The notes under the pieces: generated by a model
What the model saw: only the letters and a program-made list of their open reading frames with translations
Database searches by the model: none
What the model was told of the DNA's origin: nothing
NCBI GenBank assembly: GCA_017613135.1
Contig: JAGAEN010000013.1
Location: forward strand, 1-40,842
DNA length: 40,842 nt
From: Candidatus Saccharimonadota bacterium
Lineage (GTDB): Bacteria > Patescibacteriota > Saccharimonadia > Saccharimonadales > Saccharimonadaceae
Direction of reading: 5' to 3'
Program-made: the position numbers and the translations under genes
In this document: positions 5,935 through 37,294 of the stretch, piece after piece
How positions within the stretch are numbered: position 1 is the stretch's first letter
Layout of the letters: each line of letters opens with the position of its first letter

Positions 5935-6786
5935 ATGAAAAAATACATTTCCCACCCCGAATACACCTTCGACCCCAACCAACTTCCAGACACCGAAGAC
6001 GCAGTTATTTTGATTGATAAACCCGCCGGCATTTCTAGTTTTGGTGTCGTCGCCAAAGTTCGTGGCGCCTTAAAACTAAAATTCGGCCACAAAGTCAAAG
6101 TCGGCCACACCGGCACCTTAGACCCTTTCGCCACCGGCCTTTTGATTCTTTTATCCGGCAAAATGACCAAAAAATCTTCCGAATTTCTAAAACTCGACAA
6201 AACCTACGAGGCAACCTTACGTCTCGGCTACACTTCCACCACCGGCGACCCGGAGGGGGAAATTACTGAATTTGTGGCACCAGAGACACACCTTTCGAGG
6301 AGCATAAATGCCGACGGGGCATTTACGGAGCGACCGAGCCCCGTAACGACGGAACAACGCAGCGAGAGAGAACCGAGCTTGCTCGGTTCTCCGAGCAAGG
6401 CAGTTCCGTCACGGAACGAGACGGGAGCGAGGGAGCGTTCCGAGATAGATGTATCCCTGGTGCTTAGCAATTTTATTGGCACCATCCCCCAAACCGTTCC
6501 AAAATTCAGCGCCGTAAAAATCAATGGCGAGCGTGCTTACAGATTAGCCCGAAAAGGAAAAGACTTCGAAACCCCAACCCGGAAAGTCACAATTTATGAA
6601 ATTGATTTATTAAACTATGAATACCCCGAGCTTAAAATCAAAGTCCATTGTAGCTCCGGCACCTACATCAGGACTCTCGCCGAAGACATCGGTAAAGCTC
6701 TCGGCACCGGCGCCTACCTCACGGCACTCCGCCGCACCGAAATTGGCACATTTAGCATCAAAGATGCTATAATAAACTTATGTTAG
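5935..6786 (+). CDS. truB: tRNA pseudouridine(55) synthase with an in-frame inserted segment
   Basis: TruB isomerises U55 of the tRNA T-loop. The core is intact: LIDKPAGISS (27-36), the catalytic loop KVGHTGTLDPFATGLL with Asp63, PKFSAVKINGERAY (~189-202), and CSSGTYIRTLAEDIG (239-253). Between the STTGDPEGEI strand and the helix leading to FIGTIPQ, residues ~118-172 (about 55 aa) have no TruB counterpart I know. They are low-complexity, rich in Ser, Arg, Glu and Pro, and are encoded by a GC-richer, palindrome-packed DNA segment (6277-6463). The reading frame survives, so the gene is probably functional with a surface loop. The 3' end overlaps the next start by 7 nt. The ATG is 6 nt from an extended -10, indicating a leaderless mRNA. 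Confidence 0.95.
   Translation: MKKYISHPEYTFDPNQLPDTEDAVILIDKPAGISSFGVVAKVRGALKLKFGHKVKVGHTGTLDPFATGLLILLSGKMTKKSSEFLKLDKTYEATLRLGYTSTTGDPEGEITEFVAPETHLSRSINADGAFTERPSPVTTEQRSEREPSLLGSPSKAVPSRNETGARERSEIDVSLVLSNFIGTIPQTVPKFSAVKINGERAYRLARKGKDFETPTRKVTIYEIDLLNYEYPELKIKVHCSSGTYIRTLAEDIGKALGTGAYLTALRRTEIGTFSIKDAIINLC
6277..6463. repeat. Palindrome-rich element inserted in frame in truB
   Basis: The segment is bounded by GCACCAG (6277-6283) and its inverse CTGGTGC (6457-6463). Inside are TAAATGCC/GGCATTTA (6305-6312 with 6318-6325), an 11-bp stem with a TT loop (6368-6378 with 6381-6391, core AACCGAGC), and GTTCCGT/ACGGAAC (6403-6409 with 6411-6417). It is GC-richer than the surrounding gene and has no transposase. 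It behaves like a small palindromic repeat that landed in a coding region without breaking the frame; Rickettsia palindromic elements are a known precedent of this type. Confidence 0.65.
6765..6773 (+). promoter_or_regulatory. Extended -10 of the PRC-barrel gene, inside truB
   Basis: TGC-TATAAT in the last codons of truB, followed by exactly 6 nt and the ATG at 6780. This gives the downstream gene a leaderless transcript independent of truB. Confidence 0.65.
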
Positions 6787-22993: not shown

Positions 22994-23020
22994 ATTTTTT
23001 GAACATAAAGCAAGCCCAAG

Positions 23021-23098
23021 AATTAAAAAATAATTTCACAGATTTGAATCCTGTACTGGTAATACAGGTGAAAATCTGCCTGAAATTATTTTTTAATT
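23021..23098. repeat. Long hairpin between the HAD gene and the aldolase gene
   Basis: A perfect 18-bp outer stem (23021-23038 with 23081-23098, starting AATTAAAAAATAA) encloses CAGATTT/AAATCTG (23039-23045 with 23072-23078) and CCTGTA/TACAGG with a 7-nt loop. No T-run follows the stem, so simple termination does not explain it. GAACATAAAG (23001-23010) just upstream recurs inside the hairpin at 28796-28898. Confidence 0.75.
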
Positions 23099-23135
23099 CC
23101 TGGCGCGAAGCGTAGAGTGAAAAATTTTTATTTTA

Positions 23136-28785: not shown

Positions 28786-28794
28786 TAGTGCCAA
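28768..28794. promoter_or_regulatory. CIRCE operator
   Basis: TTAGCACTC (28768-28776), 9-bp spacer, TAGTGCCAA (28786-28794). The left arm is a perfect CIRCE half-site; the right arm matches GAGTGCTAA at 7 of 9. It overlaps the -35 of hrcA, so bound HrcA should block polymerase. Confidence 0.92.
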
Positions 28795-28795
28795 C

Positions 28796-28898
28796 AGGCA
28801 ACTAAATTTTTTAGGACTGTCCTGCGGAACATAAAGACTTGGCCAGAGCGGCTTGGGAGCTGTTGTCCGAAGGACACGCCTAAAAAATTTAGTTGCCT
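28796..28898. repeat. Long hairpin between hrcA and the adenylate-kinase-like gene
   Basis: A perfect 20-bp outer stem (28796-28815 with 28879-28898, beginning AGGCAACTAAATT) encloses TGTCCT/AGGACA (28818-28823 with 28871-28876), a CGGA/TCCG stem and a GC-rich core. It fills the whole space between CIRCE and the next -10 (28900-28908). No T-run follows. It shares GAACATAAAG with the flank of the hairpin at 23021-23098. Confidence 0.75.
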
Positions 28899-28899
28899 A

Positions 28900-28908
28900 T
28901 GCTATAAT
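28900..28908 (+). promoter_or_regulatory. Extended -10 of the adenylate-kinase-like gene
   Basis: TGC-TATAAT followed by exactly 6 nt and ATG (28915). Confidence 0.7.
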
Positions 28909-33157: not shown

Positions 33158-33199
33158 AAAAATCAGCCTAAGTTAGGGGGGTAACTTAGGCTGGTTTTT
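33158..33199 (+). terminator. Intrinsic terminator of the oxidoreductase cluster
   Basis: A perfect 12-bp stem CAGCCTAAGTTA/TAACTTAGGCTG (33164-33175 with 33082+100 = 33182-33193) with a G6 loop, preceded by an A-run and followed by GG and T5. Confidence 0.93.
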
Positions 33200-37117: not shown

Positions 37118-37195
37118 CATCTAATTCGCAAGAAAAATCGCGTAGATTGCCATTTTCTCGGGCCGACGCGCTTATCTATCTGGCTAATTCTTAAC

Positions 37196-37281
37196 AAAAA
37201 CCCGCCAGGTTGGTGTTTTATCCGTGCGAAGCGCTATTATTGATAGAACGAGCACGGAAAAACGCCAAGATGGCGGGTTTT
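37196..37281 (-). terminator. Very long hairpin terminator of the 37295 gene
   Basis: ACCCGCCA/TGGCGGGT (outer) continues into TTGGTGTTTT/AAAACGCCAA (one G-U), then TCCGTGC/GCACGGA, leaving a ~24-nt loop with a small CTAT/ATAG stem. On the minus strand a T-run follows the stem, so it can terminate, but about 25 bp of stem is far more than termination needs. Confidence 0.75.
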
Positions 37282-37294
37282 AGTAAAAATTAGC

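Follow-up and report, generated by a model that had tools for sequence, protein, structure and literature searches.

A dispersed family of gene-invading palindromes with locus-specific arms in a Saccharibacteria genus, identified from an in-frame insert in truB

The window analyzed here, a stretch of 40,842 nucleotides from a Candidatus Saccharimonadota bacterium (contig JAGAEN010000013.1), contains a truB gene interrupted in frame by a palindrome-rich segment. The question raised by this locus is whether the segment is a mobile palindrome that has invaded a coding gene, as proposed in an earlier note made from the sequence, and how such a palindrome might enter a gene. We found that proposal to be largely right. 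Absent from it were three features described below: arms that are specific to each locus, a second palindrome nested within the first, and a concentration of copies in genes of tRNA biology.

The 187-bp segment edged by GCACCAG and CTGGTGC is located at positions 6277-6463 and is inserted in frame, without a stop, in the truB open reading frame (Table 1). It lies between two conserved TruB blocks, as had been noticed; the Pfam match to TruB_N is split by the insert, and its best stretch covers residues 166-245. The higher GC content reported for the insert was borne out (60%, versus 46.5% for the rest of truB). Three inner inverted repeats had been listed; these are real, and we measured four (11/11, 9/9, 8/8 and 8/8). 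The outer arms are 25 nt long and 76% complementary. An estimate of about 55 added residues stood as to the addition and not as to its size: 187 nt make 62 codons, and relative to insert-free congeners the TruB protein is longer by ~42-51 residues. The distance from the TGD motif to the FIG..Q motif is 84 residues in the insert-bearing TruB, compared with 33-42 in insert-free congeners. As one strand, the truB insert folds at -88.5 kcal/mol, versus -55.9 ± 4.3 kcal/mol for shuffled sequences (z -7.6). In an AlphaFold model the pLDDT of the insert is about 42-59 and that of the TruB catalytic domain mostly >90, and the insert is predicted to be a disordered, low-confidence loop between conserved blocks of a well-predicted TruB.

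Table 1. Positions of the palindromic insert, its parts and its host gene, and of a copy of a second palindromic family, in the window.
Feature	Positions	Strand	Evidence
truB (tRNA pseudouridine synthase B), host gene	5935-6786	+	Pfam TruB_N 1.2e-46, TruB_C_2; PDB TruB matches
Whole palindromic insert, both locus-specific arms included	6277-6463	+	Inverted repeats, fold, absence from TruB of 8 congeners
Left arm, locus-specific (partner 6444-6463)	6277-6296	+	Inverted repeat; other copies lack this sequence
Core, left part: hairpin A (6305-6312/6318-6325) and 5' half of hairpin B	6297-6344	+	
Second palindrome within the apical loop of hairpin B	6345-6420 (boundaries ± 3 nt)	+	
Core, right part, ACGGGAGCGAGGGAGCGTTCCGA	6421-6443	+	Second block of matches (query 181-213)
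Right arm, locus-specific	6444-6463	+	Inverted-repeat analysis
Second palindromic family (unrelated core), one copy, immediately 5' of an ATG	28794-28900	+	

Copies of the central part of the insert, its core, were found in 13 places in the 0.73-Mb genome of origin by DNA search, and about 22 copies were detected there with a covariance model (R1) built from 46 full-length copies. The left part of the truB core is 80-86% identical to the other full-length copies of that genome, and R1 matches the truB copy at 6285-6377 with 50.6 bits. The DNA query matched 40 of 60 congeners and nothing beyond the genus. Among 198 genomes sampled from the order, 15 were congeners, of which R1 matched 14; outside the genus it gave weak matches in only three genomes, from other genera of the family. 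A scan for the core pattern across the genomes of 84,980 species yielded at least 80 loci, and all of the matches listed were in Candidatus Saccharibacteria; they came from metagenome-assembled genomes (MAGs) of ruminant gut and also, as we take the isolate codes to indicate, of termite gut and other sources. By sequence, the truB insert belongs to a dispersed palindromic family in one Saccharibacteria genus, for which all copy counts over species, here and below, include copies inherited by several species.

The core (about GAGGAGCATRTTTGSCGACGGGSCAAAYACGGAGCGACCGAGCCCCGTAACGACGGGAGCGAGGGAGCGTTCCGA) is conserved over ~75 nt and folds as a Y-shaped hairpin, with GGAGC/GTTCC as its closing stem, an 8-bp hairpin A and helix B (GC-CC-...-CCCCGT). 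Its helices are separated by tandem G-A mismatches, which form conserved internal loops and can be replaced by paired bases (GCGACC..GGGAGC becoming GCAAGC..GCTTGC). Double-sided change was found in 27 of the 36 core pairs, and the covariation score was 0.413; shuffles scored 0.144 and slid controls about 0.1. More diverged copies (C8, C3 and C10) keep the same structural plan. The Rfam covariance models gave no match to the core.

Most copies lie within genes. We found 138 of 149 distinct copies inside open reading frames of at least 150 codons, on either strand of the DNA, with 104 of these genic copies in the sense and 34 in the antisense orientation. Most of the host genes encode aminoacyl-tRNA synthetases or tRNA-modification enzymes. 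Copies avoid those core frames in which a stop occurs (combined log10 P about -34) and, judged from the open reading frames, are read through in the frame of the host. The same core occurs in some 25 unrelated genes. Hosts named by NCBIfam include argS and ileS (two sites each), valS, leuS and pheT; queA, dus, tsaD, miaA, mnmA, trmD, tsaE-tsaB, rlmD and the gene for a TIGR01177 methyltransferase; and obg, der, orn, tatD, rarA, pcrA, polA and genes for a cysteine desulfurase, a P-type ATPase and a FemX-like protein. Further hosts outside this naming are truB and uvrB, the latter assigned by our reading of the translation. In ArgS or ValS the predicted insert peptide contains ...GATEPRNDGSEGAFRE.... 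In the genome of origin, 14 of 20 genic copies are in aminoacyl-tRNA synthetase (aaRS) or tRNA-modification genes. Such genes make up roughly a tenth of a genome of this kind, and measured against that approximate share the enrichment looks large.

Sites occupied in one species can be empty in another. Using joined flanks as the query, we found that TatD, ValS, ArgS, QueA and Dus each have congeners with no insert and congeners with several insert types at the same place. The insert-free form of QueA reads RGKLHDGD(K)LSIDNHTIIISKILGNGIAEVE, and filled QueA genes gain 81-87 nt as a rule, with one exception of 72 nt and two longer ones (114 and 231 nt). The TruB loop is short in 8 of 29 congeners and carries varied inserts in the others, many of them matched by the covariance model on either strand; truB is a re-used insertion site. 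The orientation of the core can also differ at one site: in tatD it is sense in two genomes (G000 and G003) and antisense in a third (G055; L019 versus L006/L091), and in argS the copy of G007 is antisense, flipped relative to a copy at the same site (L024 versus L007). No direct repeat indicative of a target-site duplication was seen at the edges, in comparisons of filled and empty sites made between species rather than between very close strains. Searching the genome for more copies and aligning TruB with that of relatives, both suggested in the earlier note, thus gave many copies and congeners without exactly this block. The two outcomes it had named as speaking against mobility, no other copy anywhere and the same insertion as diverged, non-palindromic DNA in all relatives, did not appear. 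As a separate observation, the TruB and Dus loops of some congeners (L052, L053, L054 and L190) hold unrelated inserts (..PEPGKARxSAxRP.. and ..EEHKGKICQ.QILAAEGA.QCDKISD..), which suggests that the genus has more palindromic families.

The flanks immediately outside the core are complementary to each other over a median of 22 nt (interquartile range 20-27 nt), and the sequence of these arms differs at every site, each arm pairing solely with its own partner. Among the 149 distinct copies, arms scored 11.35 when paired with their own partner and 5.08 when the partner was taken from another copy. The GCACCAG/CTGGTGC arms of the truB insert are accordingly a property of the truB locus and no fixed end of the element. 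At sites filled in more than one species (argS, queA, dus, P-type ATPase, rlmD and others), arms paired better within a species than between species (16.0 versus 8.0, p = 1e-12); therefore, the arms drift yet remain complementary. Orthologous sites that have no insert showed no inverted repeat above the level of shuffles. Read in the mRNA sense, arm mismatches comprised 70 G-U and 68 A-C pairs. Selection on an mRNA stem should favor G-U, whereas templated repair at the level of DNA should not; with no excess of G-U, arm pairing therefore looks to be maintained at the DNA level, the simplest route being that one flank is copied as a template across the hairpin.

Several accounts of how the arms are built were tried. 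Progressive growth with age was rejected: arms are not longer in copies with more diverged cores, which suggests that they form during insertion or shortly afterwards. In most copies the left arm, in core orientation, carries one extra unpaired base (53 copies left-only, 12 right-only), 8-16 nt out from the core and regardless of the strand of the gene (for example L007, L008 and L010). Repair of the reading frame was rejected as the sole cause of these bulges, since the extra base belongs to the core's left arm whichever strand the gene is on. By eye, tatD, valS and miaA agree with the idea that the right arm always arises by adding an inverted duplicate of the left flank; queA does not, and neither do the antisense tsaD copies, where, in gene orientation, it is the right side that is native. 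In QueA both arms occupy native codon positions and the net gain for an element of the truB type is only 84-87 nt, so that in this gene the copied arm took the place of host sequence instead of adding to it. We found no known mobile element in the literature whose closing stem is built from the sequence of the host gene.

The extra length of the truB copy relative to most others is due to a second palindrome, located in the apical loop of its helix B. This cassette (AACGACGGAACAACG...GGCAGTTCCGTC) recurs in the same helix B loop of elements in two congeners, in obg (L098) and tsaE-tsaB (L099) of G055 and in uvrB (L100) of G054. The two innermost palindromes of the truB insert are part of a second, nested element, a palindrome living in palindromes and an element that parasitizes elements.

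The window also holds a copy of a second, unrelated palindromic family (Table 1), with a conserved 63-bp core (TGTCCTAAGGAACATAAAGACTTGGCCAGAGCGGCTTGGGAGC...CCGAAGGACACG) and nearly perfect locus-specific arms of about 20-22 bp. This family was found in 23 of 60 congeners and in about seven places in the genome of origin, both in genes (peptide ..SAEHKDLARAARSVSEGHA..) and between genes. The mean arm score over 29 full copies was 17.4, and 19 of these copies lie in open reading frames of at least 150 codons, on both strands. A tRNA origin of the second core was rejected, as ARAGORN finds no tRNA in it. That an unrelated core has the same kind of arms argues that the arms stem from the process of insertion or repair, and not from the core.

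We think it likely that the truB insert is a selfish palindromic element of the non-autonomous kind, which enters genes in frame and works like the Rickettsia palindromic element (RPE). For such an element we infer the copying step, its timing and present-day mobility. The core would enter as a hairpin-forming single strand, or as a DNA end carrying the core. The polymerase may then fold back over the hairpin and copy the host sequence next to it inversely, which yields flank-core-flank', before it resumes the normal template. Later, repeated template switching would re-homogenize the arms and sometimes flip the core. Selection would spare only stop-free insertions with a length of 3n in tolerant surface loops, and in truB the second palindrome would have entered the loop of the first. 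Homogenization of arms and inversion of the spacer are known signs of template switching, and both are present in the Saccharibacteria copies. The narrow range of arm lengths goes beyond what plain template switching predicts and hints at a measuring step. Neither the sense bias (104:34) nor the enrichment in tRNA-related genes is predicted by a neutral selfish model alone. A further proposal, which we hold tentatively, is a mobile-DNA mechanism of its own kind, in which a hairpin core inserts and the same event copies ~22 nt of the neighboring gene inversely to the far side of the core, which would furnish every copy with terminal inverted repeats tailored to its site. Two or more unrelated cores of the genus would use this mechanism, and it would load translated loops into enzymes of tRNA biology.

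If the palindromes were instead functional structured RNAs in the mRNAs of the translation machinery, for example tRNA-like decoys for autoregulation with a fold under selection, then the strong compensatory evolution of core and arms, the conserved tandem G-A internal loops, the sense bias and the 14 of 20 genic copies in aaRS and tRNA-modification genes would all be expected. We consider this unlikely, because a quarter of the copies are antisense, even where another species has a sense copy at the site, and because the arms have no G-U excess in the mRNA sense, congeners have the same genes without any insert, the hosts also include polA, uvrB, pcrA and the P-type ATPase gene, and Rfam gave no match. 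Removal of the insert from the mRNA, or its skipping by the ribosome, as in an intron or a translational bypass element closed by the arms, is very improbable. Site-specific arms would juxtapose the flanks, and bypass elements with hairpins are known; the avoidance of stop-holding frames and the lengths that keep the frame would be pointless without translation, and antisense copies would give a different RNA. An ordinary low-complexity expansion of the TruB loop with a chance palindrome is refuted, with next to no probability left to it: the length of the TruB loop does vary across congeners, but the core recurs with covariation in some 25 unrelated genes, and the fold is far more stable than in shuffles.

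The remaining alternative is a known transposase acting in trans, either a REP/RAYT-like Y1 transposase or that of an insertion sequence of which the element would be a MITE, with the arms produced by its reaction. The substrates of HUH transposases are hairpins with bulges, which the bulged hairpin found here resembles, the bulge being mostly in the left arm. A Y1 transposase (TnpA_REP) was found in only 2 of the 60 congeners and was absent from the other 58 and from the genome of origin, and a reverse transcriptase was absent from the element-bearing genomes G000, G003, G036 and G026. Both enzymes were ruled out as general mobilizers by their absence from element-bearing genomes. As the ends also vary between copies, unlike those of MITEs, and known REPs are extragenic whereas the Saccharibacteria copies are genic, we regard a known transposase as quite unlikely.

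The selfish in-frame element that we favor has its closest likeness in the RPEs (Ogata et al. 2000/2002, reviewed in PMC10969869). Both are palindromic repeats of ~100-190 bp that lie in frame in unrelated genes, give a recurring peptide and add tolerated extra segments to proteins of host-associated bacteria with small genomes; insert-free orthologues, another mark of RPEs, exist for the Saccharibacteria element. The comparison drawn in the earlier note thus holds in the sense of "works like", with no membership claimed. The phylum is different, with none of the loci listed in the core-pattern scan in Rickettsiales, and the core appears unrelated; the Saccharibacteria element has site-specific co-varying arms, a nested palindrome and a concentration in tRNA biology, with RPEs compared by description only. 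The RPE literature covered (review PMC10969869) yielded no description of locus-specific arms or of nesting. The earlier statement that no such element is described in Patescibacteria also agrees with our search, in which we found none in the literature on Saccharibacteria or Patescibacteria.

Other known systems share some features with this family. Template-switch (quasipalindrome) mutation makes or keeps arms identical and inverts spacers, also in coding DNA, as described in yeast (PMC8604942), and it can create and maintain hairpins (PMC8794818); it is, however, a mutational process and no element, and it leaves the dispersal of the core and the narrow arm length unexplained. REP/BIME sequences with RAYT (Y1) are likewise short palindromes, dispersed in the genome and folding as single strands, but they are extragenic and the Saccharibacteria element is mostly genic, in a genome without a Y1 transposase. 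MITEs are also short, non-autonomous repeats with inverted ends, but their ends do not vary and have a counterpart in an autonomous transposon, whereas here the outer inverted repeat differs at each site. In Nematomorpha mitochondria long inverted repeats code for conserved protein in both arms (PMC6649704); coding arms are the feature in common, in animal mitochondria and without a dispersed core.

Palindromes that invade genes in frame have so far been a peculiarity of Rickettsia and its relatives, and are now found in a distant phylum of ultra-small parasites, where essential genes are hit at high density. The many sister genomes make it possible to follow sites with and without an insert, changes of orientation and nesting. 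The locus-specific arms offer a handle on how palindromes insert, a question standing since 2000, and show co-evolution of the host codons that flank an insert. Annotators of Saccharibacteria should expect translated palindrome inserts of 25-60 residues in aaRS and tRNA-modification enzymes.

Three other hairpins were observed in the window. An AT-rich 23-nt inverted repeat with a 42-nt loop lies at 23016-23103, in a short open reading frame or intergenic stretch. Strong terminator-like hairpins are found at 33158-33199 (AAAAATCAGCCTAAGTTA/TAACTTAGGCTGGTTTTT) and at 37191-37287 (TTAACAAAAACCCGCCA../..TGGCGGGTTTT), the latter with a long structured loop.
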